Source: Phycisphaerales bacterium (GTDB lineage Bacteria > Planctomycetota > Phycisphaerae > Phycisphaerales > SM1A02). Taken from it: DNA of 51,971 bases. Below are positions 11,531 through 45,588 of this stretch, one piece after another. The stretch covers positions 1 through 51,971 of the forward strand of contig JAKVBU010000027.1 in assembly GCA_022446885.1 (NCBI GenBank). The letters are read 5' to 3'. The notes under the pieces are model-generated. The model had not been told where the DNA came from, did not search any database, and saw only the letters and a list, made by a program, of their open reading frames with translations. The translations under genes were made by a program, and so were the position numbers. How positions within the stretch are numbered: position 1 is the first letter of the stretch; each line of letters opens with the position of its first letter.

Positions 11531-11554
11531 ATGTAACTCTGATTCAGAACCAGA

Positions 11555-12743: not shown

Positions 12744-12750
12744 CTCGGCC

Positions 12751-14130: not shown

Positions 14131-14212
14131 GCAGTACAGAAGGCCGGACGATGCCAAAGGGCATCGGCGGTCCTGGCCGAGCTTTAGCAGCCGAATCGAA
14201 ACTGAGTCAAAT

Positions 14213-14306: not shown

Positions 14307-14412
14307 AACCTGGCTGTAATGACGCTGCCACAGCCATCTAGTCCAGTGCAGCCAGATCTGTGCAGCCCAACCAGTGCCTGTGGCCCGTGTCAACAGAACA
14401 TGGTTGCTCTCA

Positions 14413-15480: not shown

Positions 15481-15557
15481 GATCGGGGATGGGCTCCGGG
15501 CCCAGTATCGTAGGATCAAGCGGTCACCATCTGTTTGAATTGACTTGGAGGACCCAA

Positions 15558-18237: not shown

Positions 18238-18313
18238 TCGGCCGCTGTCGAGCGGGTCGCAGACAAGTTGAATAGTCAAAGGTGCCGCCGAGCGGCAGAA
18301 TCGAGATCAGATC

Positions 18314-18928: not shown

Positions 18929-19055
18929 CTGGCTTGGGTTGAGGGGCTGATTGTCGGCTGCGGCTCTGGAGCGATCCAGGGCCGTGGTCAATTTTGGGGG
19001 GCGGTTGGTCTCCTTGGGCAGGAAGGCCAGGCTTTGGGCAGGTGTCGGGTAGATG

Positions 19056-19285
19056 TTGGGCACCCACCAGTTCGCGGGTAGGCAGCGGGCAGATAGTGGG
19101 GCAGATAGTGGACACCCACCAGTTCAGGTGCCCTATTTGAAGTAGGTGACCAGGGCCATCTAGCTTGTTTGCCCTTCGAGCACTGAGCGGCCACCATTGG
19201 CGGAGGCCAGTGACCGGGGCCGGCGGGTGTCCAACAATGGCCAAGGCCAGACGGAACGCCGAGTTTGGTGGGTGTCCACAAATCT
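19056..19285. repeat. GGACACCC repeat cluster 4 (-,-,+,+)
   Basis: Cores lie at 19058-19070 (minus, GGGCACCC variant), 19110-19122 (minus), 19221-19232 (plus, CGGCGGGTGTCC) and 19265-19277 (plus). The outer module of the second copy is tandemly duplicated (GCAGATAGTG at 19089-19098 and 19101-19110). The cluster fills most of the 506-base interval between cysC and rpmE, which otherwise holds only the rpmE promoter. Confidence 0.8.
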
Positions 19286-19341
19286 CCTCCACAGGAGGGC
19301 ACCGGGGGGCCTGGGCCTCGACAGCGACAATGTGCTGTGAC

Positions 19342-19377
19342 TTGAATCTGGCTGAGAAGCCCCTATCCTATGGGGCT
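19342..19377 (+). promoter_or_regulatory. Promoter of rpmE-prfA with a dyad over the -10
   Basis: TTGAAT (19342-19347), a 16-base spacer and TATCCT (19364-19369) match the rplM promoter exactly. An inverted repeat AGCCCC/GGGGCT (19358-19363 with 19372-19377) brackets the -10, which could be an operator or a start-site hairpin. Confidence 0.65.
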
Positions 19378-19434
19378 CTGCAGCAGGCCCCCAGTTGGCC
19401 TACAGGCTTGTCAGAGGCCCTAGGAGCGGATCCG

Positions 19435-19668
19435 ATGAAGAAAGACATCCACCCCGAGTTCTATCCGGAAGCCAAAGTCATGTTCCGCGGTGAGCAGGTC
19501 ATGACTGTGGGCGCAACCGTGCCGGAACTCAAAGTCGAAATCTGGTCAGGCTCGCACCCCTTCTACACCGGCAAGAGCTCCTTCGTTGACACAACCGGCC
19601 GTGTGGAGAAGTTCCAGAAGAAGTTCCAAGGCAACTACTTCAAGAACAAGGGCAAGAAGGACAAGTAG
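19435..19668 (+). CDS. rpmE: 50S ribosomal protein L31, zinc-free form
   Basis: The 77-residue product begins MKKDIHPEFYPEAKV and contains SGSHPFYTGK and GRVEKFQKKF, the L31 signature. The four zinc-binding cysteines of the C+ form are all absent (the CxC site reads MFRGE and the CxxC site reads WSGSH), so this is a C-minus L31 that should not need zinc. Seven of the last twelve residues are lysine or arginine-like, giving a basic tail. TAGGAG precedes the ATG by nine bases. It is followed 85 bases later by prfA on the same strand. Confidence 0.94.
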   Translation: MKKDIHPEFYPEAKVMFRGEQVMTVGATVPELKVEIWSGSHPFYTGKSSFVDTTGRVEKFQKKFQGNYFKNKGKKDK

Positions 19669-19753
19669 CCCAACAACTGAACCTCAGCGGCGACCACTTC
19701 AATGGATGTGGTCGGCTTTCGCGCGTCAACCGACCGATATCACTTCAGTTCAG

Positions 19754-20836
19754 ATGGTCGACATTCACCCAGCACTGGCAGAACGCCTCACCGCACTTGA
19801 ACGGGAGTTCGAGGCAGCCGAAGCTGCACTGCTTGACCCAAGCGTGTTGGCGAATCACACGCTTGTGCGTGACCACTCTCTCAAGCGATCGTCACTTTTC
19901 CCGCTGGTCAGAGCATGGCGGGCCCTACAGTCAGCTCAGGCCCGAATTCGGGAGTCCGACGCACTCTTGAAGACCGAGTCTGATGAGGACCTGAGAGATC
20001 TCGCGCGAGCCGAGCGTGCGGAGGCTCTTCAATCGCTGAGTGACCTAACTGAAGAGGTGAAGCAGAGGCTTGTCAGGAGCGAAGATGACGCTGTCGGAGC
20101 GCTGATTCTCGAGATTCGGGCCGGGGTGGGGGGCGATGAGGCGGCTCTGTTTGCCGGTGACTTGCTCGACATGTACTCGCAGTTTGCATCAGGTCGGTCT
20201 TGGCTCATGGAGTCTTTGGAGCAAGTCCCCGGTGAGCAAGGTGGCGTTAGAGTTGCAATCATGAGTGTTGAGGGCGAGGGCGCATGGTCAAGCCTCGGTT
20301 ACGAGGGCGGGACACATCAAGTCAAGCGTGTGCCGGCTACCGAGACCAAGGGCAGAGTGCACACGTCCACAGCAACAGTTGCGGTTCTACCTCAGCCTCG
20401 GGAGGTGGAAATCGATCTGAATCCTGCTGATGTCAAGGAGATGATCACGACGGCAACCGGTCCAGGAGGCCAAAACGTCAACAAGGTGTCGACTGCGGTG
20501 CACCTGATTCACGAACCCACAGGTACGGAGGTTCGCATGCAAGACACAAAGAGCCAGTCGCAGAATCGACAGAAGGCTTGGAAACTGTTGCAGGCGAGGT
20601 TGTTTGAGTCGCAACGCAGAGCAGATGAAGCAGCAAGAGCAGCGGAGCGATCGGCCATGATTGGCACCGGCTCAAGGGCGGAGAAGATTCGGACCTACCG
20701 TTGGAAGGAGAGTTTGGTCATGGATCACAGGTTGGGACGTTCATTCCCCTTGCAGCCGGTCTTGTCGGGGGGGCTGGACTCCATCGTCGAAGCCCTGACG
20801 GAACTCGATGTGGCACGGCGGCTCGAGTCCATGTGA
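19754..20836 (+). CDS. prfA: Peptide chain release factor 1
   Basis: The 360-residue product is a class I release factor. GPGGQN places the peptidyl-hydrolysing GGQ at 238-240, and VKRVPATETKGRVHTS carries the PAT tripeptide of RF1, so it reads UAA and UAG. DTKSQSQNRQKAW and EKIRTYRWKE complete the family pattern. The ATG at 19754 begins VDIHPALAERL, which fits the usual start; the frame upstream overlaps rpmE out of frame and is discarded. rpmE-prfA adjacency is common in bacteria. The prmC methylase that usually follows is absent here. Confidence 0.97.
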   Translation: MVDIHPALAERLTALEREFEAAEAALLDPSVLANHTLVRDHSLKRSSLFPLVRAWRALQSAQARIRESDALLKTESDEDLRDLARAERAEALQSLSDLTEEVKQRLVRSEDDAVGALILEIRAGVGGDEAALFAGDLLDMYSQFASGRSWLMESLEQVPGEQGGVRVAIMSVEGEGAWSSLGYEGGTHQVKRVPATETKGRVHTSTATVAVLPQPREVEIDLNPADVKEMITTATGPGGQNVNKVSTAVHLIHEPTGTEVRMQDTKSQSQNRQKAWKLLQARLFESQRRADEAARAAERSAMIGTGSRAEKIRTYRWKESLVMDHRLGRSFPLQPVLSGGLDSIVEALTELDVARRLESM

Positions 20837-20947
20837 CAGCCACGGTTGCCAGGTGGCTTGACTGCTTTGGAGAGGCTTGAGGAGGGCTTCAGAGAAGAGC
20901 TTGCGGCTGCGGCTACCCCAGCCCGTTGCGAGTTCTCGGGGTGAGTG

Positions 20948-21035
20948 TTGGACACCCATCAATCTCACTCCAGAGGTGCCTGGGTGAGGATTGGACACCC
21001 ACCAACCTCAATACAAGGGGTGCTTATAGGTGAGT
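20948..21035 (-). repeat. GGACACCC repeat cluster 5 (two tandem minus copies)
   Basis: Cores at 20950-20962 and 20993-21005, both minus, form a direct repeat with a 43-base period. Between the cores an imperfect stem (CTCAC-CCAG with CTGG-GTGAG) can form. The cluster lies in the 440-base interval between prfA and the prepilin gene; the rest of that interval (to 21276) holds only the upstream region of the prepilin gene. Confidence 0.8.
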
Positions 21036-21276
21036 CGAGGAGACCTAGGAGCCCTGAGTGGCAAGCACAGGGATTCAACAGATCAATTGTGGCCAGGCCG
21101 AGGCGGGGTGCGCCAGGGGCCACATCGGGCCAATCGGCCTCTAGCGGAACCGGTCTGACTTGACCTATCTGCTGCCGCTCGGGCCTTCTGGCGCTCTACA
21201 GCACCGATCCTGACCAATGATCGCAACCTGAAGCGACGCGCACGGGTATCTTGAAGTACCCCCGTGGAGACTCCAA

Positions 21277-22374
21277 ATGCCCAGTTTCAGCCCGACAAGA
21301 CGTTTCCAGCAAATCAGAGGCTTCACACTCGTAGAGTTGCTTGTCGTCATAGCGCTGATAGGCATTCTTGCCGGCATTCTGCTCGTAGCGGTCAGTAGTG
21401 CCACGACTTCAGCCCAACGGGCACGAACATCGGCAAGCATCAACTCTATCGCTGCCGCCATTGATGGATTCGTGCTGGAACATGGCAATCTTCCAGGGTT
21501 GATCCCAGCGCATCTCTTGGACGATGGTTCCGTACTGACACAGTCGCAGAACATCATGCTGAGTCTGGCCGGAGGCGCACGAGTGTACGCATCACGGGCC
21601 GACAGCAATGGTGACGAGATCCCGCTCGACCCTGCCGCCAAGGCTGAGTACGATCGCTACGCCAATCTGCCAGGACCCACAGTTGAAGTGGACCCAATTC
21701 AGGATGGTGATCTGACTTGGTATCTGGTGTTCAAGCGAGATCGAGTTGGCGAAGGTCCTTGGATTGCCGGGAGGCCATACCCACCATATCTCTCGCCCAA
21801 GGACGATGAGATTCGATATCCAGAGTCTACTGGTCCTGATATGGATCCCCTGACGTATGGTCACAACGCGTTACCAGATCTGGTTGATGCATGGGGCCAG
21901 CCAGTGTTGATTCTGGCGAGGCAGTCTCGTACTGGTCCGATCGTGTCAACTTCGACAGATCCGGATGCTGAGACCCCACAGTTCAACACGAATGGCATCG
22001 ACATCTACTTGTCGGCGGGGACGCTTGGGGACATGGAGCAGGCACAACGGCAGAATCAGTCTTCTGCAGGCGGCCGGACCGGTAGCCGATTGGCGAGCAC
22101 CATGAATGGTGACGCTCAGGAGGGTGAGCGCGAGCACTGGTTGTATCTCCTGCTGTCGCATCCGACTTTTACCGAACTGAATGCCTCTACATTTGCGGGC
22201 CAGCCAGCAGGGGCCTACTTGGTCCACTCAGCAGGGCCTGATGGTGTGTTCTTGAGCCACCAAGATGGTCCGCTTGCTAGTAATGGCCAGTTCGATCCAA
22301 GTTTCGCAGGGATGGACTTTGAGGATCTGGAGGAGTTCGACGACATGTACGCCTCCGGTGGCGCCGTACGTTGA
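21277..22374 (+). CDS. Type II secretion/pilin-like protein with prepilin leader
   Basis: The ATG at 21277 follows GGAG by nine bases. The first residues form a class III leader: a basic stretch ending RG, then FTLVELLVVIALIGILAGILL, so prepilin peptidase should cleave after Gly15 and leave Phe1 and Glu5. The mature part (about 350 residues) is hydrophilic, with several Pro/Asp-rich stretches and no recognisable minor-pilin domain. It lacks the H-X9-DG motif of DUF1559 proteins. It is probably an inner-membrane or periplasmic pseudopilin; the assembly machinery is not nearby. It stands alone. Confidence 0.8.
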   Translation: MPSFSPTRRFQQIRGFTLVELLVVIALIGILAGILLVAVSSATTSAQRARTSASINSIAAAIDGFVLEHGNLPGLIPAHLLDDGSVLTQSQNIMLSLAGGARVYASRADSNGDEIPLDPAAKAEYDRYANLPGPTVEVDPIQDGDLTWYLVFKRDRVGEGPWIAGRPYPPYLSPKDDEIRYPESTGPDMDPLTYGHNALPDLVDAWGQPVLILARQSRTGPIVSTSTDPDAETPQFNTNGIDIYLSAGTLGDMEQAQRQNQSSAGGRTGSRLASTMNGDAQEGEREHWLYLLLSHPTFTELNASTFAGQPAGAYLVHSAGPDGVFLSHQDGPLASNGQFDPSFAGMDFEDLEEFDDMYASGGAVR

Positions 22375-23125
22375 ATTCTGGCCAGAGTGTGGCTTCTCAC
22401 GTTGCAGTGCTCGTAGCCAGCCCCGCCAGGTAGGGTGGGGCGATTGCTCTCCGATGCGTGGCTCGTGTGGATTGGCTAACTGACGGTGCGTACTTAGAGC
22501 GTCACAGTCTCAGCCCTCCTGGGGCGAGGCTCTCAAGTTGAACAGAACGAAGTGGTCGGTGAATCAGTGGCCAGCCGCGGATCTGATCTTGGTCGGTGCA
22601 ACTAGTGTGCAGTTAGCGGACACCCACCTATTCGCCTGCTGTTGCATTCTGGCGACGTCGACGCTCAAGGTGCGTTACTGACTTACCCACAGTCTGGCCG
22701 TGGGGACTGATCGGTGAAGGCTCATCAAGGTGAAAGTCCGAGTGGCTGTGAGACTTTTGATCGCGTGTGCCAGAGTCAAGACAAGGATTGATCACAATGG
22801 CAGGGGGTGTGCGTCAGACGAGTGGCGCTTTTCTGGGCCGTAGTGGTGTATTGCAAGCACTGGGGAAGCTGCGCGGGGTGTGAACTCTCAGCAGGCAAGT
22901 CTGATCAAACAGAGAATCGGTGGGCCGTGGAACTGAAACTGCCCAGGTGGGATCAGTAGGGGCGTTCTAGCCTGACACCTGCATCTCTGAACCGCGTTAG
23001 TGCTGTTGCAAACTCTCTACGCCGAGAGTGGGGCGGTGTCCAGACTCTGACCTGTCTCAGCATGTCCAGAATTGGTGGGTGTCCAACATCTGCAGAGATT
23101 GCGATCTCTGACGTTGAAGAGCCGC
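22375..23125. other. Gene-poor convergent interval with repeat cluster 6
   Basis: These 751 bases between two convergent genes hold no supportable coding region. Two cores of the dispersed repeat occur at 22618-22630 (minus) and 23072-23084 (plus), and a degenerate third is possible at 23031-23041. The minus copy has the duplicated outer module (GCAACTAG and GCAGTTAG). A stretch near 22732-22742 (GTGAAAGTCC) resembles motifs seen in group II intron and RNase P RNAs, but no wider structure supports either. Confidence 0.55.
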
Positions 23126-24568
23126 TCACGCCAACAACTCCCCCACAACTCGCGCCGGCTCCACACCCGTCAGCCGTACATCCAACCCTTGATGTCGCAC
23201 CGCCAGCTGCTCATGGTCAATGCCCAACTGGTGCAACATCGTCGCGTGCAAGTCACGCACATGCACCACATCCTCAACCGCGTGGTACCCCATGTCATCC
23301 GTCGCACCTATTGAAGTGCCACCGTGAATGCCACCCCCAGCCAGAAACATCGAGAACCCCTTGATGTGATGGTCTCGCCCTGGGTCATCGCCTCCGCCCT
23401 GTGACATCGGTGTGCGTCCGAACTCGCCACCCCACACGATCAAGGTGTCCTCAAGCAATCCCCGCTGCTTGAGATCCTTGATCAATGCCGCCGTAGGTTG
23501 ATCACATGCCTTCGTGCAGATATCCATGTACTGCCTGAGTCCACCGTGATGATCCCATCCCCGGTGATAGAGATGAATGAACCGAACACCTCGCTCTGCC
23601 AATCGCCGCGCCAACAGGCAGTTGCTCGCAAATGACCCATCCCCTGGCACCGCCCCATACATCTCCAGCACTTCAGGTGACTCGTCGGAGAGATCCATCA
23701 ACTCCGGCACCGACATCTGCATCTTGAACGCCAACTCATACTGGGCGATACGCGAGTCGATCTCCGGATCGTGAGTGACATCCCCGCGAAGCCGATTCAG
23801 GTCTGCCACCGCGTTGATGAAGTGCTCCTGCCGGTCGCGGCTGATGCCCTTGGGATTGGAGATGTAGTGCACCGGATCGCCCTTGCCCTGAAACTCGACT
23901 CCGGCCAATCTGCTTGGCAAGAACCCGCTCGACCACTGCCGCTGTGCAATGGGCTGCGGATTTCGCCCTGCAACACTCGTCAACACGATGAAGCCCGGCA
24001 AGTCGTCACTCTCACTACCAAGGCCGTAATTGACCCACGACCCCATGCTCGGTCGCCCAGGAATGATGCTCCCTGTGTTCATGAACGTGTGAGCCGGATC
24101 ATGGTTGATCTGCTCGGTCACCATTGAACGGACAATTGCGATGTCATCTGCAACAGATGCGATGTGAGGCAAGTAGTCACTGATCAGCTGCCCGCTCTTG
24201 CCGTGACGTGCGAATGTCGCCGGCGAACCAAGCACTTTCAGTTGCGCCTCTTTCTGCAGCTGTGCGAGCGGCATGCCCTCTGTAAACGAACCGGGCATGA
24301 TCTCGCCGTGCATCTTGTGCAGCAGCGGCTTCTCGTCGAACGTCTCAAGTTGACTGGGACCGCCTGCCATGCACAGAAAGATCACCCGCTTTGCCCGTGC
24401 CATGTGGTGGCCGAGCCCGGACGCCACTTGCGGGCTGCTGCCGGCGATCGCCGACATCCCCGGCAACTGAGACAGCGCCGCAGCACCTACACCCATCGAC
24501 AACGAGCCAAGAAACTGCCGTCGATTGATGCGTGCCAACTCGGCTTGAAGCGGAAGAGACTCAGTCAC
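23126..24568 (-). CDS. DUF1501 protein, Tat-exported sulfatase-like
   Basis: This 480-residue protein belongs to DUF1501, a planctomycete-rich family in the alkaline phosphatase/sulfatase superfamily. A twin-arginine signal (NRRQFLGSLSMGVGAAALSQ) starts at residue 15. GGPSQLETFD, HDPAHTFMNTGS, YHRGWDHHG, VWGGEFGRTP and GRDHH supply the predicted metal ligands. The start is a GTG at 24568, overlapping the end of the upstream DUF1553 gene by eight bases, which implies coupled translation. DUF1501 and cytochrome-DUF1549-DUF1553 genes occur in pairs across planctomycetes. They are thought to act at the cell envelope, perhaps on sulfated polysaccharides, but the reaction is not established. Confidence 0.93.
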   Translation of the reverse strand: MTESLPLQAELARINRRQFLGSLSMGVGAAALSQLPGMSAIAGSSPQVASGLGHHMARAKRVIFLCMAGGPSQLETFDEKPLLHKMHGEIMPGSFTEGMPLAQLQKEAQLKVLGSPATFARHGKSGQLISDYLPHIASVADDIAIVRSMVTEQINHDPAHTFMNTGSIIPGRPSMGSWVNYGLGSESDDLPGFIVLTSVAGRNPQPIAQRQWSSGFLPSRLAGVEFQGKGDPVHYISNPKGISRDRQEHFINAVADLNRLRGDVTHDPEIDSRIAQYELAFKMQMSVPELMDLSDESPEVLEMYGAVPGDGSFASNCLLARRLAERGVRFIHLYHRGWDHHGGLRQYMDICTKACDQPTAALIKDLKQRGLLEDTLIVWGGEFGRTPMSQGGGDDPGRDHHIKGFSMFLAGGGIHGGTSIGATDDMGYHAVEDVVHVRDLHATMLHQLGIDHEQLAVRHQGLDVRLTGVEPARVVGELLA

Positions 24569-27500
24569 GGTTGATTGTCTCGTGCAGATTCAAGATAGTC
24601 CGGCACACGTGGGTCCACGCCGCTTTCTTGGCGGCCTCTTCACGGCCCCCGGAAACCAACGCCGCTTCCGCGGGGGTCTGCCGCCAGTGCTCCAGACTAC
24701 TTCCAAGTAGTTGCTCCAGACGGTCAACTTCAGCGTTCGAGGGTCGTCTTCCGGTTGCTTCTCGCATGGCCCAAGCAAGTTGATCTCGGGTTGACCCGGG
24801 CGCGTGCTCCAGCACGCGCTGGGCCATGGCTCGTGCAGCTGCGATGGCGACCGGGTCGTTCATCATCGCCAGTGCAGCCAGCGGCGTGTTTGACACGGGC
24901 CGCTGGGCCGTGCACTCAACTCTGGAGGGAGCGTCAAATGCCTTGAGCATTGGGTGCAGGAACTGGCGTTGCCAGTGCACATAGACCCCTCGTCGCCACT
25001 GGCGTTCATCTTGGTCCGCCTTGTACTTCCGCGGTGGGAAGTTCAAGTGCTGATACAGCCCCGGCGGCTGGGGGGGCTTCACACTCGGACCGCCAACCTT
25101 GTCCACTAACAGACCGCTCACAGACAGCAATCGGTCGCGAACCAACTCCGCCGGCAATCGGCTTCTGCTCTGTCGCGCGAGGAGCAGATTCTCCGGGTCA
25201 CGCTCTACAGACTCAAGTGAGGGGACCGAAGACTGACGGTATGCGTCTGACATCGCGATCCGCCGGAGCATCGCCTTGATGTCCCACCCTGACTCAACAA
25301 GATCAATCGCAAGTGCATCAAGTAACTCCAAGTGCACAGGCGGGCGGCCCTGTCCACCAAAGTCATCTAGTGAGGGACAGAGCCCGACGCCCATCATCAT
25401 CGTCCAGAGTCGATTCACGAGCACCCGCGCCGTCAACTCGCCCACGCCACCTTCTGCGATGGGTGTTGTCAGCCAGCGGGCAAAGTCGAGCCGGTCGGGG
25501 CGATCCTCCACCTCGAGTGATCCCATGAATGCTGGAATGGCAGGCTCAACGAGTTCGCCTGACTCGTCCAGAAAGTCGCCCCGGGGCAGGATGCGTGTGG
25601 GGCGGGGGGTTTTGAGTGTCCTTGTATAGACGGTCTTGGGCAGAGATTTATCGTGTTGAGCAAGTGTGCGCTCAGCGGACTTCACTGCTGCTCGATGCTG
25701 TTGCACCTCGGGTGAATGGGCTGATTGGAGGGTGGCCAGCAACGCCTCTTGGGCCTCGGAACGGTCCGTCGCTCTGAGGGCGGTTTGAACCTCATTGGTG
25801 AGTCCACCTGACTCCACACCGGCGCGATCCCACCGAACCGTTCCACCATGTTGAGTGAATGCCCACCCATTGATCGTCGCGTCCTCTGCGAGGCCGACTT
25901 CGCTTGCCATCACTTCCAGGCGAACCCACTCACCCAGAGGAGGGAGGTCGCCCTTTCGCTGGTAGCCGGTCCATGAGTTCCCCCGCCTACCGTAGCCAAT
26001 GCTTGAGTCTCCCCAAACGGCTCGGTGCTCCCAGTCGTCGCCGTCAGCATTGAATTGGAGCATGACTGCGTTGGGTGGGTCTTCTTCAGACAAGTAGACC
26101 CACGTGTACAGCAGGTCGTCACCTTTGAGTTTGATCTCCCGATCAGCCTCGCTTGTGTAGTGCTGAATCAGGCCTTCCGACTGTTGCAGCCGGTAGGCAG
26201 TGCCCGAGTGGGGTAGGGGATCCGTGCCACTTTGGAAGTTCCAATCGCCTTGAACATGGCCTCCAGTGTCTGCCAGGTCGTCAACCCAAAGCGTGTCCTC
26301 TGTATGCCTTTGCTCAACGTCGGTGAGCAGGTCTTGAGCCCACTGTTCTCTGTCTGTGGTGAGCGCTGCTACGGCTTCACTCATGGCGTTTCGAGCCGAC
26401 TCGATTTTCATCTGGATGGCTGCACGCTTGCGGTTGGACTCATCGGTGGCAACCTGCATCTCCGGTACGCGCCTTGTTGGCGATGTGTTCAGGCCGTTGT
26501 ATGGGTCTTCCAGATGTTCTTCGTCGTCGATGTCTGCAAAGAATGCGCCCATGGCGTAGTAGTCATGCATGGTGTACGGGTCGTACTTGTGGTCATGACA
26601 CTGGGCGCAACCAACTGTGGCACCCATCCAGACGGCTGAGGCGTTGCGGATGCGATCACCCATGTAGATCGCGCGGTATTCCTTGAGTTGCACGCCGCCT
26701 TCATGGGAAGTCTGAATCAGGCGGTTGTATGCGGTTGCGACTTTTTGACTCTGCGTTGGATTGTCGAGCAGATCGCCGGCAAGCTGCGCCTCCGTGAATT
26801 GGTCGAAGGGCATGTTGCTGTGGAAGGCGTCGATGACCCAGTCTCGGTACGGCCAGATGTGCTGAGCTTGATCGCCGTGATAGCCGACGGTGTCAGCGAA
26901 CCGGACAAGGTCGAGCCAGAACATGGCCATGCGTTCAGCGTAGTTGTGACTTGCCAAGGAGTGATCAATGGCGCTCGCCCAGGCTGCCTCGTCGGGGTTC
27001 TTCAGGTAGGCATCTAGTTGCGCTGTGGTGGGTGGAAGCCCGGTTAGATCTGTGGTGAGGCGGCGGAGCAGGGTTGCGGAATCGGCCTCTGGGGCAGGTT
27101 GCAGGCGCTCCTGTTGAAGTCGGTGGCTGATCCAGCGGTCGATCGGGTCGTTGGACCAGGACGAGTGTGTTGGGGGGGGGACGGGGACGCGTTTTGGTGG
27201 TACATACGCCCAGTGAGGTTCGTAGCTTGCGCCTTGTTCGATCCAGGTGCGAATGAGGTGGCGCTGCTGGTCGGACAGGGCGTTGTGGACGGCCTTTGGG
27301 GGCATCGGATCGCCGGGGTCAATGATGCGGATCCAGGCTCTGCTTGCCTCGGGGTCGCCGGGAATGATGGCTTGTTGGCCTCGCCGTCGTGGGGCGGTGG
27401 CAGACTCGAACGTGGTCAGGTCGAGATCGGCTTCGCGTGCGGCGGCGTCGAGGCCGTGGCAGGCGAAGCAGTGATTGGAAAGGATGGGGCGGATCTGGCG

Positions 27501-27608
27501 GGTGAAGTCGATGGGGGGGGATGTGTCTGGAACTGCCGCCTGAACGAGGGGGCTCAAGGTTGCGGCGGTCAGGCTGGCCGCGAACAAGGCAAGGGCCGAG
27601 GGGATCAT
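24561..27608 (-). CDS. PSCyt1-DUF1549-DUF1553 envelope protein
   Basis: The 1015-residue product has a signal peptide (residues 1-25), then a planctomycete cytochrome C domain with haem motif CFACH at 47-51. DUF1549 follows (FWLDLVRFADTVGYHGD, then WMGATVGCAQCHDHKYDP, which holds a second CxxCH). A middle region of about 200 residues has lectin-like beta-rich character. The C-terminal DUF1553 domain includes LVNRLW, DDFGGQGRPP, LAIDLVESGWDIKAML and TAQRPVSNTPLAAL. The set is typical of planctomycete envelope proteins of unknown reaction. The ATG at 27608 is the first of this two-gene operon. Repeat copy 18 (27637-27649) lies just upstream. Confidence 0.92.
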   Translation of the reverse strand: MIPSALALFAASLTAATLSPLVQAAVPDTSPPIDFTRQIRPILSNHCFACHGLDAAAREADLDLTTFESATAPRRRGQQAIIPGDPEASRAWIRIIDPGDPMPPKAVHNALSDQQRHLIRTWIEQGASYEPHWAYVPPKRVPVPPPTHSSWSNDPIDRWISHRLQQERLQPAPEADSATLLRRLTTDLTGLPPTTAQLDAYLKNPDEAAWASAIDHSLASHNYAERMAMFWLDLVRFADTVGYHGDQAQHIWPYRDWVIDAFHSNMPFDQFTEAQLAGDLLDNPTQSQKVATAYNRLIQTSHEGGVQLKEYRAIYMGDRIRNASAVWMGATVGCAQCHDHKYDPYTMHDYYAMGAFFADIDDEEHLEDPYNGLNTSPTRRVPEMQVATDESNRKRAAIQMKIESARNAMSEAVAALTTDREQWAQDLLTDVEQRHTEDTLWVDDLADTGGHVQGDWNFQSGTDPLPHSGTAYRLQQSEGLIQHYTSEADREIKLKGDDLLYTWVYLSEEDPPNAVMLQFNADGDDWEHRAVWGDSSIGYGRRGNSWTGYQRKGDLPPLGEWVRLEVMASEVGLAEDATINGWAFTQHGGTVRWDRAGVESGGLTNEVQTALRATDRSEAQEALLATLQSAHSPEVQQHRAAVKSAERTLAQHDKSLPKTVYTRTLKTPRPTRILPRGDFLDESGELVEPAIPAFMGSLEVEDRPDRLDFARWLTTPIAEGGVGELTARVLVNRLWTMMMGVGLCPSLDDFGGQGRPPVHLELLDALAIDLVESGWDIKAMLRRIAMSDAYRQSSVPSLESVERDPENLLLARQSRSRLPAELVRDRLLSVSGLLVDKVGGPSVKPPQPPGLYQHLNFPPRKYKADQDERQWRRGVYVHWQRQFLHPMLKAFDAPSRVECTAQRPVSNTPLAALAMMNDPVAIAAARAMAQRVLEHAPGSTRDQLAWAMREATGRRPSNAEVDRLEQLLGSSLEHWRQTPAEAALVSGGREEAAKKAAWTHVCRTILNLHETINRD

Positions 27609-27838
27609 CTAGGTGATGGTAGTGGGGGGCATTGTTGGACACCCACCAACCAGTCGACGACGAAGGCTGCGTCCTGCCTGAGTCCGGCGTTGGCGACGAA
27701 CCGGGCCGCCCCGCGCGCGAGTATGCTCCGAGTGGATGAGATTGACGCAAAGTGCTCGCTGGCCTGGGCCAGCATGCCGGTGGTGCCGAGGCCGAGGTAA
27801 TGCTGGCAACGGATCACGCTGTTCACGAGTCTCGCCAT
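27605..27838 (-). CDS. Doubtful small open frame running into a repeat copy
   Basis: A frame of about 77 residues from the ATG at 27838 reads like protein (amphipathic helices, GC-rich third positions) and ends by running through the repeat core at 27637-27649, which would encode LVGVQ. It overlaps the first bases of the DUF1553 gene. I see no ribosome-binding site and recognise no family. It may be a chance frame or the remnant of a gene whose 3' end was replaced by the repeat. Confidence 0.2.
   Translation of the reverse strand: MARLVNSVIRCQHYLGLGTTGMLAQASEHFASISSTRSILARGAARFVANAGLRQDAAFVVDWLVGVQQCPPLPSPR
27637..27649 (-). repeat. GGACACCC repeat, single copy (site 7)
   Basis: One core (GGACACCCACCAA) in minus orientation lies 28 bases upstream of the DUF1553 gene start. 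Its outer flank AACAATGCC is a loose match to the module seen elsewhere. Confidence 0.75.
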
Positions 27839-27907
27839 CTGTGGGAAAGTCAACGACGGGCACACGAATCGCAGGCCGACGGTGTGTTGGTGCCAGCCTC
27901 CGGTCCA

Positions 27908-28810
27908 CTACGAGTCTCCCTGCTCGTTACAAAACACGCTGACCAGGGCTGAGATGTCATGTTGCCCTAGGCCTACTTGCTTCGCCTCCTGAAACACAGC
28001 CTGAACTGCGTCCTGCAGCACGAGATTCGTTCCGAGTGACTTGGCTACGGAGTGAATCGTCTCATGCGCGGCTGCCCAGGTATTCAGTGACGCTTCGGTG
28101 GACTTGGTGTCGTCGTCCCGAATAGCCTCGAACGCTCTCACCTGTTCGCCCATCAAGACGCCGTTGACCGTGCTGCTGTGCTGCATGAAGAGATCGGCCG
28201 GAATCCCGGCCTTCAATGCGATCGCCATGCCGTTGACGAAGCCAATCATTGCGGTTGCGAATCCTGCCACAACTGCTCGGCTTAGTGCGGCGGGCTGTCC
28301 AATGTCATCACCCAGATTCATCCACTCGGGCGCAAGCACGCAACAAACATCTTCACACGCCGCTAACACTTCGGGCTGTCCAGCCATCAACAAAGACGCT
28401 GCCGAAGTCCCGAGTTGGCTGGGATAGCACTGCACCTTGCCTTCGGCGATCCGACCGCCGTGTTCATGGATCAGTGCAGCGTGTTGCCTCACTTCTTCAA
28501 TTGTGCCGGTGGTCAGTTGCAAGATGCACACGCCGTCAAAGGCAGTGTGCAAGCCATGCTTCTCGATGAGCTCGTGCCAGGCTGCGTAGTCAGTGAGGCA
28601 GATCACTACCTTCGTGCTGTCCTTGAATGCGTCGGCAGGCCCATCGCAGGCCGAAGCGCCCATAGCCACAGCCGCATCCACCTTCTCGCGGGAGCGATTC
28701 CACACGGACACGCTGTACCCGGCCTCAAGCAGGGTACGAGCAATACTCAAACCCATCGCACCAAGGCCGATGACGGAGACTGAACGGCCCAGATCACCAT
28801 GTTCATCCAT
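27908..28810 (-). CDS. NAD(P)-binding imine-reductase-like dehydrogenase
   Basis: The product (about 300 residues from the ATG at 28810, which follows AGGAG by nine bases) belongs to the beta-hydroxyacid dehydrogenase superfamily. The Rossmann motif GLGAMG is at 15-20, with VWNRSREKVDA matching an NADP-preferring pattern. The segment GGRIAEGKVQCYPSQLGTSA resembles the inter-domain region of imine reductases more than that of 3-hydroxyisobutyrate dehydrogenases, whose catalytic lysine motif is not evident. The helical C-terminal domain forms the dimer. The substrate is unknown. An in-frame ATG at 28876 would add 22 residues but has no ribosome-binding site. It stands alone, downstream of the tRNA-Asn region on the same strand. 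Confidence 0.78.
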   Translation of the reverse strand: MDEHGDLGRSVSVIGLGAMGLSIARTLLEAGYSVSVWNRSREKVDAAVAMGASACDGPADAFKDSTKVVICLTDYAAWHELIEKHGLHTAFDGVCILQLTTGTIEEVRQHAALIHEHGGRIAEGKVQCYPSQLGTSAASLLMAGQPEVLAACEDVCCVLAPEWMNLGDDIGQPAALSRAVVAGFATAMIGFVNGMAIALKAGIPADLFMQHSSTVNGVLMGEQVRAFEAIRDDDTKSTEASLNTWAAAHETIHSVAKSLGTNLVLQDAVQAVFQEAKQVGLGQHDISALVSVFCNEQGDS

Positions 28811-29053
28811 GCGGACAGTCTCCTGCGACTCGCAACGTAGGTCAATTCCATTGACTTTGATGCGGCACCCAAGCATAGATGGTCCGACGAACCTGTTAAC
28901 TGGTTTCTGAGAGCGCGAGAGTTTGGGGGCAATCGACGCCTTTGAGCGCGTTCGGATCGGGGCTCGATCAGAACGACTTCAAAGCCGAGAGCGCCCAACC
29001 CCCGCGACAGGGTCGCCAAGGTCCTATCTCTCCGCTCTCTCCTGTTAACGACA

Positions 29054-29180
29054 CGGCCCCCTTCGTCTTTGAAGGAGGCCGGAAGATCAGGAGAGCAGTC
29101 GAGATCGCTCTGGCTACGCCCTCGCTCTCCTGCTCTGTTTGGTCCTCAAGCCCGCCCTGCGGGCGGGCTTGAGGACCAAA
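29054..29180. other. Cluster of three hairpins between tRNA-Asn and the dehydrogenase
   Basis: Within 127 bases lie three inverted repeats: CGGCC.CCTTC with GAAGG.GGCCG (29054-29081), CAGGAGAGC with GCTCTCCTG (29088-29132), and a perfect 20-bp stem with a three-base loop (29138-29157 with 29161-29180). The last directly abuts the 3' end of tRNA-Asn and could stop its transcript, although no T-tract follows. The 28811-29180 interval holds no supportable gene. Confidence 0.7.
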
Positions 29181-29253
29181 CTCCCCCGGCTGGACTCGAA
29201 CCAGCAACCTAGCGGTTAACAGCCGCTCGCTCTACCAATTGAGCTACAGGGGA
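29181..29253 (-). tRNA. tRNA-Asn (anticodon GTT)
   Basis: The 73-base cloverleaf is complete: acceptor TCCCCTG pairs with CGGGGGA, the D arm has AGCTCAATTGGTAGAGC, the anticodon loop CTGTTAA carries GTT, and the T arm has GGTTCGAGTCC. CCA is not encoded. A promoter of the form TTGATC-N17-TATCCT lies just upstream on the minus strand. Confidence 0.97.
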
Positions 29254-29269
29254 TTGGGTTGGACCGAGC

Positions 29270-29298
29270 AGGATACCGCCCCAATCTGGCTCGATCAA
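29270..29298 (-). promoter_or_regulatory. Promoter of tRNA-Asn
   Basis: On the minus strand TTGATC (29298-29293), a 17-base spacer and TATCCT (29275-29270) precede the tRNA by 16 bases. The -10 is identical to those of rplM and rpmE. Confidence 0.7.
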
Positions 29299-29690
29299 GG
29301 CGACTGGAGGTCGGCAAGCGTCGCCCGCCGCAGGGCCCGGTTCATCAGGTCATGGTCGTCGCGTGACCAACCATCAGCCCGCATGATGTTGATGACCACC
29401 ACGGTGGTGGTCTCGAGCTCGCCATTGAAGCGGGCCAACGCCTCGTGCATGGCAGGTGCCCCGTCGGCTGCCTGCGGTCGCTGCGACGCCTTAAGCCGAA
29501 CCGCAACCAAGGCCTCACGAAAGGCGTCAAAGCGGGGGGCCTGAATCGCCTCGACATCAAGGGGATCGAGCCTCACAACACGCATCCGCTGGTGAGGGGG
29601 CGTCTGAGGCTCAGCATCGCCACTACCACAGCCGGGCAGGGACAGCCCCTGAGCTACTAGAGCAACCCCCAGCAGCGTCTGCCGCCACAT
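29295..29690 (-). CDS. Small predicted lipoprotein
   Basis: From the ATG at 29690, with GAGG six bases upstream, the product is 131 residues. Residues 1-21 form a lipoprotein signal ending LPGC, so Cys21 is the predicted lipidation site. The rest is a short Pro-rich linker and a helical domain with no recognised family. The stop at 29295 overlaps the -35 box of tRNA-Asn on the same strand, so the two transcription units abut. An alternative ATG at 29702 has no proper ribosome-binding site. Confidence 0.7.
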   Translation of the reverse strand: MWRQTLLGVALVAQGLSLPGCGSGDAEPQTPPHQRMRVVRLDPLDVEAIQAPRFDAFREALVAVRLKASQRPQAADGAPAMHEALARFNGELETTTVVVINIMRADGWSRDDHDLMNRALRRATLADLQSP

Positions 29691-29740
29691 CTTGGGCCTC
29701 ATCCTGTTGCAATAGGCCACGGTATCTGGATGATACAGAC

Positions 29741-30520
29741 ATGCCGACGATGCGCCGATCTCAGCTGAGTAGGTCTTTCAGAGGGTTCTCCCTCGTCGAG
29801 ATCCTCGTCGTGATCGCAATGATCGGCATTCTGGCCGGACTCATTCTCGTGGGCACAGTGGCCATGGAGAACAAGTCGATCTCGCTGCTCGATGCCAGCA
29901 CACACAACGATCTGGTCAAGGCAAATATCGCCCACACCGCCGACCACAACGGCAGGTGGCTCAATCCCATGACGTATGGCGATTCAGATACATGGGTGGA
30001 CTGTGGGGGAAACAACCTGATTGACGGAGTCGAACAGCCAGGCTCACTCAGGCAGGGGGAGGCGTGGGCCTACATCGGCAATCTCGCCACCTACAAGTCT
30101 CCCGAAGACAAGTCTGCACGCATTCGTAGTTACTCATACAACGCACAAGTCGGCGTCCGCTGGGACGGATACCACACCCAGCAGGGCTACGGGCCCGGCA
30201 CCCAAACCATGGGCACAGTGCCGATGCCTTCCAGCACCATGCTGACCGTGTCCGAGCACTCCGAGTATGGCTACAACCCACAGGGCTTTTACGTGGGCTT
30301 TGCTGGATCGAGTTGGGAAGGATGCTGGGTGGACTTCCCCGCCTATCACAATCCCATGGGCGTCAACATCGGCTACGTAGACGGCTCCGTACGCTTCTAC
30401 ACATTCGCAGATCCCAATCTGTCGGAGATGGTGACACACGCCTACACATGGGGCGTCGAAGGCCCTGATCTGGACTTCTTCGCCAGCATCATGTTGCCCG
30501 GCTGGGATCGTGAATGGTGA
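29741..30520 (+). CDS. Prepilin-like protein with H-X-DG-type C terminus
   Basis: The 259-residue product has a prepilin leader (basic residues ending FRG, then FSLVEILVVIAMIGILAGLIL), so cleavage after Gly15 is expected with Glu at mature position 5. The C-terminal part carries AYHNPMGVNIGYVDGSVRF, close to the H-X9-DG processing-associated motif of planctomycete DUF1559/prepilin-like proteins but with ten residues between His and Asp-Gly. Many Trp/Tyr/Gly residues suggest a beta-rich surface domain. The ATG at 29741 is used; an in-frame ATG at 29750 is also possible. It diverges from the lipoprotein gene 50 bases away. Confidence 0.82.
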   Translation: MPTMRRSQLSRSFRGFSLVEILVVIAMIGILAGLILVGTVAMENKSISLLDASTHNDLVKANIAHTADHNGRWLNPMTYGDSDTWVDCGGNNLIDGVEQPGSLRQGEAWAYIGNLATYKSPEDKSARIRSYSYNAQVGVRWDGYHTQQGYGPGTQTMGTVPMPSSTMLTVSEHSEYGYNPQGFYVGFAGSSWEGCWVDFPAYHNPMGVNIGYVDGSVRFYTFADPNLSEMVTHAYTWGVEGPDLDFFASIMLPGWDREW

Positions 30521-41485: not shown

Positions 41486-42541
41486 TCAACGGCGAGGGCG
41501 CTGTTGCATCGTGACATTGAACGTCCGGTTTATGCCGCTGCGGCGCAGGCGAATTGGGTAGGTCCGGCCCGGCTGAAGCAGTGCGACGACGTGCCGTAGA
41601 TCTTCGCTGTCGAGGATGGGGCGTTCATCGATGGTCTCGATGATGTCGCCCATGCGTAGGCCCGCTTGATGTGCTGGAGAGTCAGGTACAACGCGGGTGA
41701 GGATGCACGCATCGGCATTGGTTGATTCGTCGTAGTGGTCGTTCGACAGGACGCCAAGCCAGCCTCGGGTAGCTCGGCCGGTGTTGATTATTGAGTCGGT
41801 GATGCGTTGCACCGTTTCGCCCGGAATGGCGAATCCCACGCCGCTGCCGTTGCCGGTCAACGATCGAATGGCCACGTTGAGGCCGATGACGCGGCCGTGG
41901 AGATCGACGAGTGGTCCGCCGCTGTTGCCGGGGTTGATGGCGGCGTCGGTCTGGATGAGGTGTTCGTATTCGCTGATGCCAAGCCGCGTGCGACCAGTGG
42001 CGCTGATGATGCCTGCAGTGACGGTTTGGTCGAGACCAAAGGGGCTGCCCACGGCGAGGACCCACTGGCCCACACGGGCGCTATCGGGGTCTGCGAAACG
42101 GGCTGCTGGTGGGCGGGCGGCGTCTATCTGAAGGACGGCCAGATCGGTGGGGGTATCGCGGCCGATGAGGCGTGCGCGGTGGCGGCGTCCGTCGTCGGTC
42201 TCGATCACGACCAGGGTGGCGCCTTTGATGACGTGGGCATTGGTGACGATGTGTCCCTCGTCGGAGATCACGAGCCCGGTGGCGTAACCCTGGAGGGGGT
42301 CGTCTGCGTCGAGCAGATTGGATGGGCGGGCGTGGCCGGGGCGGGCGACCCCGACGCGTACCACCGATGGGCGGATGATGCTCGAGCCATGCTCAAAGGC
42401 GATGGCGAGTTGGTCGGCTGCTGAGATGGCGGCCTGAACGGCAGGTGGAGGCGGGGCGGCGGAGGGCTCACTCGCGGGGGTGGCTGCAGATCCACCCAGC
42501 AGGGCGAGGGTGCTGGCGAGAGCGGTTCCGGGGAGGGGCAT
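41486..42541 (-). CDS. Periplasmic DegP/HtrA-like serine protease
   Basis: From the ATG at 42541 the product is 351 residues: signal peptide (1-21), Pro/Ala linker, trypsin-like domain and one C-terminal PDZ domain (about 260-345). The catalytic triad is His103 (TNAHV), Asp133 (PTDLAVL) and Ser207 (NPGNSGGP). It has only one PDZ, as in DegS. An upstream frame to 42637 would cross repeat cluster 9 and is discarded. It follows anmK on the same strand after cluster 9, which may separate the units. Confidence 0.92.
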   Translation of the reverse strand: MPLPGTALASTLALLGGSAATPASEPSAAPPPPAVQAAISAADQLAIAFEHGSSIIRPSVVRVGVARPGHARPSNLLDADDPLQGYATGLVISDEGHIVTNAHVIKGATLVVIETDDGRRHRARLIGRDTPTDLAVLQIDAARPPAARFADPDSARVGQWVLAVGSPFGLDQTVTAGIISATGRTRLGISEYEHLIQTDAAINPGNSGGPLVDLHGRVIGLNVAIRSLTGNGSGVGFAIPGETVQRITDSIINTGRATRGWLGVLSNDHYDESTNADACILTRVVPDSPAHQAGLRMGDIIETIDERPILDSEDLRHVVALLQPGRTYPIRLRRSGINRTFNVTMQQRPRR

Positions 42542-42623
42542 CGTGGTGCTACGGGGCGACCTGTCGGGAGGATCGCGCTGTGCTGGGAATCTGCTGACAC
42601 TGCTGATTCTGCCCTGCTGATTC

Positions 42624-42699
42624 TGGACACCCATCAATCTTGGCTGAAGCCCCTTGGCGGCCTATCAAAGCGGGGAATCATCTGATTGATGGGTGTCCA
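42624..42699. repeat. GGACACCC repeat cluster 9: 76-bp unit with 16-bp terminal inverted repeats
   Basis: A perfect inverted repeat of 16 bp (TGGACACCCATCAATC at 42624-42639 with its complement at 42684-42699) bounds a 44-base interior. The left outer module is tandemly duplicated (AGAATCAGCA on the minus strand, 42605-42623). The unit is nearly identical to the one at 44935-45009. Confidence 0.85.
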
Positions 42700-42728
42700 C
42701 TATTGGCCTCAACACTGGCCTCGGGGAT

Positions 42729-43865
42729 TTAGAGCATCGGGCGCATCCAGAGGCTCCCCGGCATGGGACCAGGGCTACGACCAGTGACCTGAACCAAAGA
42801 CGGAGCAACGCCGTCCAATTCAAGCAGGCCAAGCGTGGCCATTGCCGCCGCCTCTCTTGCCGGGGCGTTCGGGTACATCTCTACCGGCCGCGGGGATGCC
42901 TCCTTGATCGTTTGAACCAACGCAACATGGTGCATCGAGCCACCGGCCAGCAGCAGCGGACCATCACCAAGTTTGCTCGCCTCTATGCCGATGATCGTCC
43001 CCAAGACCATCGCCAGCGTGGCGGCAGCGTGCTCGGGTGGAATGCCTTGAAGTGAGTCCAGCACATCATCATGGATGTCGGCTTGTCCCATTGCAGTTTT
43101 GCCTGCGGTTCGACTCACCAACGTACCCAAGAGCAACCTGGCCAAAGGCGCATCTGGTGTGCCGGACATTGCAGCGGCTCCATCCTTGTCAAAGGGCACC
43201 CCCAGGCGTGTGCTAGCGAGCGTGTTGAGCAGATGATTGCAAGGCGTCAGATCTCGCCCAGCCACCGAGTCGACATGGCGGTTCGACCCCAGGGCGGTCG
43301 CATTGGCGAATCCGCCAAGGTTGACAATGACGCAGGGCGCCAAATGGCGACAGGCGATCCAGTCAGTCAGTGGAGTCAGCGGAGCCCCTGAGCCCCCACG
43401 AGACATGTCGCCCAGCCGCTGACCAGTCACGGCAGGCACTTGGAACGCCGCGACGATTGGGGCGAGATTGATGAGCTGCCAGGTTGATGAAGGGCCATGG
43501 TGCACGGTCTGCCCATGCACAGCGATGCAGGTCAACTCTGGCAGATCGCCCAGTTCCCTGATGGCTTCAACGATCTGCTCTGCAAGCAGGTTCCCTGCTT
43601 CCGCGATCGCCTCGGCACGAACCCGCTGGCCGGCGGCAAGCAATCTGAGCGTGTGGGCGCTGGCGCCCATTGGTGTGTGGGCGTGCGTCACCGTTTCGAC
43701 CTCGAGGTCCAGGCCACGATTGTTGCCCCTGATCAGGGCTGCGTCGATGCCGTCCAAGCTGGTGCCTGTCATCACGCCCACGGCGAACCGCTCCGAGGGT
43801 GATTCTGGTACAACTCCGCCGTCAAAGGCGTCGATCGGTGCCTGGAGATCAGTGGACATGGGCAT
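42729..43865 (-). CDS. anmK: Anhydro-N-acetylmuramic acid kinase
   Basis: The 378-residue enzyme phosphorylates and opens 1,6-anhydro-MurNAc from peptidoglycan recycling to give MurNAc 6-phosphate. The N-terminal ATP-phosphate motif [11 protein letters not shown] (31-41) is typical; [25 protein letters not shown] and LLAGG follow the ASKHA pattern. Two ATG codons at 43865 and 43859 are possible starts. They overlap head to head with the start codons of the divergent decarboxylase gene. It supports peptidoglycan turnover in this organism. The downstream MurQ etherase is not nearby. Confidence 0.94.
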
Positions 43866-44847
43866 GCGTATCGTGGTGACGGGTGGGGCCGGGTTTATCG
43901 GGTCGCATCTGTGTCGTCGCCTGCTTGATCAGGGGCACGACGTTGTCTGTGTGGACAATTTCTTCACCAGTTCCAAGCAGACGATCGAGCCATTGGAGGC
44001 CGAGGCCGGGTTTTCGCTGGTGTGTCATGACATCATTGATCCGTGGTTTCCCGATGGGCCTGTGGACCGCATCTACAACATGGCCTGCCCGGCTGCTCCG
44101 GGACATTACCAATACAACCCGGTCAGGACGATGAAGGCTTCAGTTTCCGGCCTCATCAACATGCTGGGCATGGCCAAGGCGACGGGCGCGAGGATTCTGC
44201 AAGCCAGCACCAGCGAGGTGTACGGCGATCCTGAAGTGTCTCCCCAGACGGAGGCCTATCGAGGCAATGTGAACCCGATCGGGCCGCGTGCCTGCTACGA
44301 CGAGGGTAAGCGGGCAGCGGAGACGTTGTGCTTCGATTATCACCGCGAACACGGCGTGGACATTCGCGTGGCGAGGATCTTCAACACCTTCGGGCCCCAC
44401 ATGCATCCCTTTGATGGTCGGGTGGTGAGCAACTTCATTCGCCAGGCGTTGGCTGGTGAAGACATCACGCTCTTCGGAGATGGGGGCCAGACTCGGTCGT
44501 TCTGTTTCGTCTCGGATCTGGTTGATGGGCTGATGCGACTCATGGAAGTTGATGACTTCACCGGCCCTGTGAATCTAGGCAACCCACATGAGCGCACCAT
44601 TCGCGACTTGGCTGAGCACGTGATTGCCCTGACCGGCAGTGGATCTGAGCTCGTGCATCGACCTCTGCCTCCGGACGATCCAAAGCAGCGGCGGCCGGAC
44701 ATCTCGCTAGCTCAGGAGACGTTGGGGTGGTCCCCGGAAGTTGCGCTCGAGGATGGCCTCGGTGCGACCATCGAGTACTTCAAGGGGCTCGATTTGGACC
44801 AGTGGGCACCCCCGACACCGTTTTGGGAAGCCCCGCCGCAACGGTGA
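43858..44847 (+). CDS. UDP-glucuronic acid decarboxylase (UDP-xylose synthase)
   Basis: The 329-residue SDR-family enzyme makes UDP-xylose from UDP-glucuronate for glycan synthesis. The NAD motif GGAGFIGSH is near the N terminus, and [43 protein letters not shown] and [15 protein letters not shown]-like CYDEGKR (YxxxK) are hallmarks of UXS rather than of dehydratases. The ATG at 43858 or 43864 is forced by the Rossmann strand [10 protein letters not shown]. These codons overlap the anmK start codons, so promoters must lie inside the other gene. A transcript would run into repeat cluster 10. Confidence 0.92.
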
Positions 44848-44934
44848 GCGAGCATTGAGACCCGTGGCCACCTTGGCGGCAGCGCTTGTCAGTGCGGCGG
44901 TCGTGGGGTGATGGTGACAACAGAGTGCCAATCG

Positions 44935-45086
44935 TGGACACCCATCAATCTTGGCTGAGGCCCCTTGGTGGCCTATCAGGGCGGAAATGTTCTGATTGAT
45001 GGGTGTCCACTATTGGCCGCGAGATCGACCTGGCGGGCTGCCGCAGGCCGAATTGATGGGTGTCCAATATTGGCCCAATATTGGCC
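44935..45086. repeat. GGACACCC repeat cluster 10 (-,+,+)
   Basis: A 75-bp unit (44935-45009) has the same perfect 16-bp terminal inverted repeats as cluster 9 and a very similar interior. A third core lies at 45053-45065 (plus), followed by a tandem pair of palindromes CCAATATTGG (45065-45074 and 45076-45085). The cluster lies in the 741-base gap between the decarboxylase gene and recA. Confidence 0.85.
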
Positions 45087-45183
45087 GGAGGCACTTTCAA
45101 AGCGGGGAAGACGATTTTCAGAAAATGTGCTTGTTCGGGTCTTGTCAGGACGATGATGACCCGCAACACTACCCGTACGACAC

Positions 45184-45201
45184 CCGAACATCGGCGTTCG
45201 G
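45184..45201. promoter_or_regulatory. Palindrome upstream of recA
   Basis: CCGAAC-N6-GTTCGG is a perfect 6-bp dyad. It resembles the Gram-positive LexA box CGAAC-N4-GTTCG but with two extra spacer bases. It lies about 390 bases before the recA ATG, so a role is uncertain. Confidence 0.3.
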
Positions 45202-45303
45202 AGCTGGCACCAAGAGCCAGCACGTCATGGGGCCACTTCAGGCCCTGACATCCAAGACCCTCAACGGCCCGGGCGAGCCCCTGGCGACCCGATTTCGGAC
45301 CAA

Positions 45304-45336
45304 CCCGCGACCCGCGACCCGCGACCCGCGACCCGC
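45304..45336. repeat. Heptanucleotide tandem repeat upstream of recA
   Basis: The 7-base unit CCCGCGA is repeated four times in tandem (45304-45331), with a partial fifth copy CCCGC. The period is not a multiple of three, which argues against coding sequence here. Confidence 0.9.
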
Positions 45337-45588
45337 TCCCGAACTCAGTCACCAGAAAGCACGACCGAATGACACAGGGTCCACTCCGGCAGGCCAGAGA
45401 CGGCCGGCCAAGGCATCTGGATCAGACATCAGAAGCCCAAGCGAAAGGACTCCGCCAAGATGGTCAAGAACAAGAAACGACTCGACGCCACGCAGAACAA
45501 ATCCGCCCAATCCAAGGGGCGAAACAGCAGGTCCTCGGCAAGTGGGGCTGGGCGTGCTACCGTTCCCAATGAAGGAAAGGAATCCACC

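Follow-up and report, generated by a model that had tools for sequence, protein, structure and literature searches.

Two short, nearly identical units in a 51,971-nucleotide stretch of DNA from a Phycisphaerales bacterium (the window; contig C29 of genome G000) raise the question of whether they belong to a mobile element and, if so, which enzyme would have spread it. The first-pass annotation had described a pair with perfect 16-bp inverted ends and near-identical interiors that differ by one indel. Both units were present at 42624-42699 (76 bp) and 44935-45009 (75 bp), with the inverted ends TGGACACCCATCAATC, and were 91% identical over 85 alignment columns. The common block reached from TGGACACCC on the left to the tag CTATTGGCC on the right and measured 85 bp in the first copy (42624-42708) and 84 bp in the second (44935-45018); immediately outside it, the left flanks of the two doublets diverged. 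In doublet 1 (42624-42708, plus strand), a plus unit (42624-42639) was followed by a spacer (42640-42683), a minus unit (42684-42699), and the tag up to 42708. The spacer between the inverted units was 44 or 43 bp long. Doublet 2 was accompanied by a third copy that had not been annotated, in minus orientation at 45051-45066, and the whole group occupied 44926-45075 on the plus strand. Folding as single-stranded DNA gave -20.8 and -22.4 kcal/mol for the two doublets (z = -5.25 and -5.51), and none of 200 shuffled sequences folded as well. Each doublet consists of two inverted copies of a short extragenic unit around a spacer and can form a long hairpin, which is the structure of a REPIN as defined by Bertels and Rainey (2011; PMC3116915).

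The annotated neighborhood, in which the units flank anmK and a gene putatively named UDP-glucuronate decarboxylase, was broadly correct. The neighbors of the first unit are the gene for a trypsin/PDZ protease and anmK; those of the second are an epimerase-family gene and recA. A block before recA (GTTCGGGTCTTGTCAGGACGATGATG; window 45133-45180, and near the end of G002:C91) was kept in both species and may be the recA promoter or an SOS operator.

Column counts gave a repeat unit of approximately GCCAATAS-TGGACACCCAYCAATY, which is not palindromic. The putative recognition unit comprised about 25 nt, namely the core GGACACCCA and a CCAATA-like 5′ tag. With up to three mismatches, the 16-mer matched the window 20 times, whereas 100 dinucleotide-shuffled versions gave 0.61 matches on average and never more than 3. 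Nine arrays were found in the window, seven of them in addition to the two units annotated first, and eleven were found genome-wide. Those without an overall strand were an array at 803-990 (plus unit 812-827; minus units 921-936 and 967-982; common tags GCCAATAC and CAGATAC), an array at 11298-11470 (plus unit 11334-11349, degenerate plus unit near 11371, minus units 11417-11432 and 11447-11462), a doublet at 14206-14293 (plus unit 14214-14229, minus unit ending at 14285; folding z = -4.12), an array at 19048-19283 (degenerate plus unit near 19057, plus unit 19109-19124, minus units at 19233 and 19278), and a loose array at 22609-23093 (plus unit at 22617, minus units at 23042, which is degenerate, and 23085). 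The plus strand carried paired plus units at 20941-21007 (20949-20964 and 20992-21007), with no minus unit seen there, and a single plus unit at 27627-27651 (27636-27651). In all eight arrays with both orientations, plus units preceded minus units and thus pointed inward, with a chance probability of 7e-6 given their make-up, a count based on a table compiled by hand, degenerate copies included. The other three of the eleven arrays had one orientation only.

With a crude ORF selection, six of the nine window arrays overlapped no ORF and three overlapped one or more. The array at 27627-27651 lies in an 86-aa frame (27605-27865), and the doublet 2 array touches a 135-aa frame at 44945-45352. Doublet 1 touches two frames, that of the protease gene in its long, TTG-started form, which reaches 42637, and one of 120 aa from 42693. 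Because these overlaps spare every Pfam-matched part of a gene, all nine arrays were taken as intergenic, a position that is presumed for the three ORF-touching arrays. A locus-specific 5′ tag was tandemly repeated before the unit at 11298-11335, where CAGCCAATAGTG occurred in three tandem copies, and at 19087-19110 and 42600-42625. Just TG, TGTG, or TGCC of the core stood between the tandem tags, a pattern that resembles backward slippage of copying where the core begins.

Two single units folded no better than shuffled sequences (z = -0.96 and -0.22), and the unit is therefore not a classical REP. A hairpin inside each single unit was considered, since the outer stems looked compensatory by eye, and was dropped because the flank-permutation tests were weak: P was 0.02-0.06 over elements and 0.09-0.23 over loci for the 5′ versus the 3′ flank, and 0.06 and 0.31 when the stems were anchored. 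No conserved GTAG (or GTRG) foot was apparent in the column counts, which covered 30 own units and 16 related ones.

Further copies, for which the annotation had proposed a search, were found in the window genome and in its family. A sequence-only model of the unit (R1) was scanned against 181 family genomes (E ≤ 0.1). Its 28 matches in the window genome were confined to three contigs, with 20 on C29, five on C37, and three on C22. Outside the window, one array lay at C22:707-731 and another across the junction of C22 and C37, whose ends overlap there by 19 nt. R1 matched 39 of the 181 genomes, many with a single and weak match, and 12 of the 181 had four or more: in addition to the window genome, these were G246 (53), G319 (31), G357 (15), G058 (14), G182 (11), G064 (9), G260 (7), G333 (6), G218 (6), G029 (5), and G100 (4). 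The same-genus genomes G001 and G002 had one match each (E = 0.0099 and 0.057). Judged from these matches, the distribution of the unit in the family is patchy. Of 400 genomes of the order, four contained the exact sequence TGGACACCCATCAAT. Inverted pairs of the form GACACCCA-N40-70-TGGGTGTC were found in the window genome (3), G246 (4), G319 (3), and G357 (4) and were absent from G182 and G002 among the six genomes searched, versus none for the reversed control. A pattern scan gave no match in the genome-contig collection and one match each in 34 stretches of viral contigs. In G319:C48 (L163), a second pair of block-wise copied, near-identical doublets was observed at 3300-3357 and 3996-4053, 0.7 kb apart, with one mismatch inside the units.

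The annotation had also pointed to empty sites in close relatives. At the sole junction open to comparison, the stretch from the uxs stop to the conserved block before recA was 45 nt in G002 versus 285 nt here, and thus 240 nt shorter. The exact empty site was not found at this junction: the G002 stretch ends in AATTGATGGATGTTC, which resembles half a unit, and the site may not be quite empty. Identical placement of the units in distant relatives, the result that the annotation named as evidence against mobility, was not seen in the little that could be compared.

A RAYT with matching ends, the other item suggested for a search, was present in relatives, with three full-length genes in G246 and two in G357. 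In G246, a Phycisphaerales MAG (Arabian9_MAG_11), all three full-length RAYT (HUH/Y1 transposase) genes lay between inward arrays of the unit; the arrays at C15, C58, and C3 bracket a 312-aa gene, with plus units before and minus units after it. In G357, the core pointed inward on both sides of both full-length RAYTs, and in G182 a RAYT fragment had a unit adjoining. The G246 protein scored 23.4 bits against Pfam Y1_Tnp, barely above the cut-off of 23, and 38.1 against NCBIfam REP_Tyr_transpos, below the cut-off of 80. A family search with this protein gave 75 places in 31 of the 181 genomes. Matches of at least 50% identity occurred in G246, G357, G064, G058, G182 (the fragment), and G112, and five of these six genomes were among the 12 with four or more R1 matches (Fisher, 3e-6, with both the 50% and the four-match cut-offs picked after viewing the data). 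Comparison of the RAYT profile with solved structures gave a best E of 0.13 (putative transposase 2f4f), and a single-protein structure search gave no match; the AlphaFold model had a mean pLDDT of 43 and was not used. Neither the protein scan of viral contigs nor the search of phages yielded a relative.

The window genome had no match to the G246 RAYT in the family search, and no RAYT remnant was detected in C22, C29, or C37 (best tblastn E, 0.2). It is one of seven motif-rich genomes without a RAYT of at least 50% identity, as is G319 with its 31 R1 matches. The RAYT matches in G058 and G064 stop at contig ends; assemblies of this kind can therefore lose a repeated RAYT. The genome's own Y1 transposases, on C65 and C51, were rejected as drivers: their loci contained no TGGACAC, and the C51 frame has a stop. 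Near position 275922 of C65 (L021), an inverted repeat lies just upstream of the Y1 gene (approximately 1306-1410 of L021, GACCCGTCGGGTCATTTATCTC ... GAGATAAATGACCCGACGGG); it is possibly another repeat family, and few copies of its word turned up in a sample of about 507 kb. The Y1 frame on C51 (2467-2763; L022), a 3.8-kb contig, has an internal TGA and is probably a decayed RAYT.

The structure, the copying, and the link with RAYTs point to mobility, and we consider the units to be REPIN-like non-autonomous mobile elements of a RAYT system, with a probability of roughly 0.84. The first-pass annotation had left the choice between a MITE and a REPIN; the latter is favored here, with the caveats that the unit is non-palindromic and that no matching RAYT was found in this genome. 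The best of the alternatives is that the hairpins are regulatory or terminator structures fixed in place and kept by selection rather than spread by a transposase. Their intergenic position, between convergent genes in some cases (680-1090, 14131-14413, and 22375-23126), and the ability of the doublets to fold would suit this explanation. However, no T-tailed terminator was found at 42500-45200, and no Rfam family was found at the array places. In addition, the two units share the whole interior and spacer, the orthologous uxs-recA gap is shortened in G002, and the motif also surrounds RAYTs. We therefore regard selection-kept hairpins as improbable.

One point against the REPIN reading is the regional placement of the arrays, nine of eleven of which were found on a single 52-kb contig in an assembly of 2.87 Mb, an odd distribution for a genome-wide mobile element. 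The other 2.8 Mb gave two, a contrast that is inflated because the window was chosen for showing arrays. Pieces with arrays may have dropped out during assembly, the element may have hopped locally, or part of C29 may be foreign. Mis-binning of the contig was considered unlikely. The recA on C29 is the sole recA match of the genome, and outside this genome it scored best against the same-genus G002 (77%). When cut into 10-kb pieces and compared in composition with 38 background pieces, C22 fell within the background range in all six pieces and C29 in three of five, whereas C29 10-30 kb and C37 were outlying. The G+C content of C29 and C37 was slightly lower (0.60-0.61 versus 0.612-0.628 in 19 sampled stretches). 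Synteny with G034 was too poor for placing the contigs. The stretch at 10000-30000, which stands apart from the remainder of the genome in tetranucleotide make-up, carries a planctomycete cytochrome (PSCyt/PSD1) gene with a best match of just 47% in G001 and G002. Binding sites of a chromosome-organizing protein would also account for regional placement, but the R1 matches in G246 are spread over ten or more contigs, the spacers were copied together with the units, and the arrays are linked to RAYTs; we give this explanation very little credence.

Derivation from a DDE insertion sequence was considered because the unit contains CAATAGTGGACAC, which we take to be part of the E. coli IS3 end, although the matching entries bear no such label; a 39-mer taken to represent that end occurred in 3918 of 5426 E. 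coli genomes. However, the rve domain (PF00665) was not found in G000, G182, or G319, nine of ten genomes lacked it (G058 alone has it), and the arrays flank a Y1 transposase instead, which makes an IS3-like MITE highly improbable. Local segmental or slippage duplication without transposition would fit a pair 2.3 kb apart and the tandem 5′ tags, but it is hardly credible because the shared sequence ends at the unit's own edges and the unit is also present near RAYTs and at unrelated sites in other genera.

For the REPIN-like reading, the following course of events may be envisaged. The repeat is probably unable to move by itself. The RAYT, a Y1 single-strand transposase, would most likely recognize the core in single-stranded DNA, in which the doublet would fold into its long hairpin. 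By analogy with IS200/IS605 and RAYT biology, the Y1 tyrosine would nick the DNA and the folded unit would be transferred in trans, so that the RAYT would copy or move it to other intergenic sites. Later tandem growth at a site by slippage would produce the arrays. The RAYT that served this genome would have been lost or would be missing from the assembly.

REPIN-RAYT systems are common in bacterial genomes. In PMC3116915, REPINs are, as here, inverted extragenic doublets that fold as hairpins and form tandem clusters, with RAYTs that have units adjoining; here, in contrast, the unit is non-palindromic, the RAYT is of another group, and none such was found in the genome. The GTAG-tagged REPs and REPtrons (Di Nocera et al. 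2013; PMC3733652) are likewise extragenic repeats tied to RAYTs and, according to the abstract of that paper, are recorded in Planctomycetes too, whereas the single unit here has no 6-9 bp stem and its consensus has no GTAG foot. The closest arrangement, described in the same paper, is the TIRYT/TIRtron, a Y1 transposase flanked by non-REP inverted repeats, some of which are dispersed as dimers or clusters. Here, the transposase lies between such repeats in relatives and copies are dispersed elsewhere, but the majority of TIRYT repeats share GGGGWSAS, a word that the core does not contain. In a 2018 survey (PMC6006769), 20 of 26 TIRYTs belong to TnpA_Y1 subclass 2.1 and the other six to 2.2 and 2.5, with none in 2.3, and no REP-like sequences are reported for subclass 2.3.

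The RAYT of the relatives resembles this subclass 2.3. As described for it in PMC6006769, the proteins have approximately 312-325 aa, NHxH, WE, and Y[IV]DLN motifs, and a large HuH-Y spacing, several dissimilar copies occur per genome, and there is kin in Alteromonadales. NHxH, W161-E162, and Y182-x-D184-L185-N186 were invariant in 13 of 13 aligned sequences. The HuH-Y distance (H65 or H67 to Y182) was 115-117 aa; it is near 110 aa in subclass 2.3 and 58-67 aa in most other subclasses according to the same survey. G246 differs in having NHLH and YIDLNA where the subclass motifs are NHYH and YVDLNP, and the host here is a planctomycete (Planctomycetota). Among the matches listed in the open-licence literature, there was no further relevant paper on such RAYT, REPIN, or TIRYT repeats, and an earlier description is possible.

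For 41 of the 75 RAYT places, picked as long matches, one script scanned the flanks to at most 450 bp on the upstream side and 700 bp on the downstream side. The word class GG[AC]CA[CG]NC[AC] was defined after viewing 15 loci (13 analyzed and two without a recognized frame), mostly from the same genomes. A class so derived is not independent of them. It occurred 183 times inward versus 12 times outward, the outward count serving as the control. Two or more inward cores were found in 32 of the 41 loci. Without the five discovery loci (G246 and G357), the counts were 143 inward versus 12 outward, with two or more inward in 27 of 36 loci. Among the nine loci without two inward cores, G345C245 had GGCCATGC four times, G015C14b and C18b, with identical proteins, had GGCGTGCC, G345C488 had GGACTGCG, and G061C3 had TCGGGACA; G106C73 had no downstream flank, and no clear word could be made out in G112C55, G142C29, and G106C69. 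When 33 labeled rows were mapped on a tree of 50 transposases, 11 changes of core word were counted, versus 17-22 in 300 shuffles; the labels are our reading of the flank counts, rows without a clear word were omitted, and the Pseudoalteromonas labels CuT4-3 and Bsw20308 rest on one copy each. The core word thus follows the RAYT tree. G015 had three core words adjoining different transposases, and GGACACCCA also adjoined two G216 RAYTs of a distant branch.

A tblastn search with the RAYT gave 13 records from a plasmid collection, all from Gammaproteobacteria, at 33-38% identity. Around these, GACACCC occurred 21 times inward versus three times outward (Markov mean, 0.46; maximum, 5 in 2000), with gene ends estimated in three unannotated plasmid records and ten of the 21 inward copies from two Pseudoalteromonas shioyasakiensis loci. 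The 7-mers read inward in most loci (10 of 13) were GACACCC, ACACCCA, and the A-rich AAAAAAT, versus 3, 1, and 7 outward. A GACACCC copy lay 70-78 bp before the start in seven loci. Photobacterium, Vibrio, and Catenovulum had no GACACCC, and the first two had GGACAG words instead. Free inverted pairs were found in one of nine plasmid records searched (P. piscicida, two pairs, 4-9 kb from the RAYT examined) and not in the other eight; the P. piscicida record has two more RAYT matches. The gammaproteobacterial copies often had TAA before and TTAA after the core, e.g., TAAACAGACACCCACCTTAA (L258, L264, L265, L267, and L268).

These results suggest, and we hold it to be somewhat probable, that subclass 2.3 transposases do have repeats in two phyla, in the form of inward arrays of the short non-palindromic core GG[AC]CA[CG]NC[AC] (GACACCCA in Gammaproteobacteria), the word following the transposase clade, with up to three words per genome. 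A hairpin-based search may have missed the repeat because its single unit does not fold. The window would represent the passenger side of the system, its genome having the repeats but, as far as was found, no transposase to match. The rule by which each RAYT is paired with its repeat has, to our knowledge, been worked out in few groups. If the proposal is true, a group reported as repeat-less would gain a repeat family in which the core varies together with the transposase across dozens of pairs. What the enzyme reads would then be a word, not a self-contained hairpin, as in a repeat-enzyme code, and the pairs of core and transposase would offer ready material for working out how recognition is governed.
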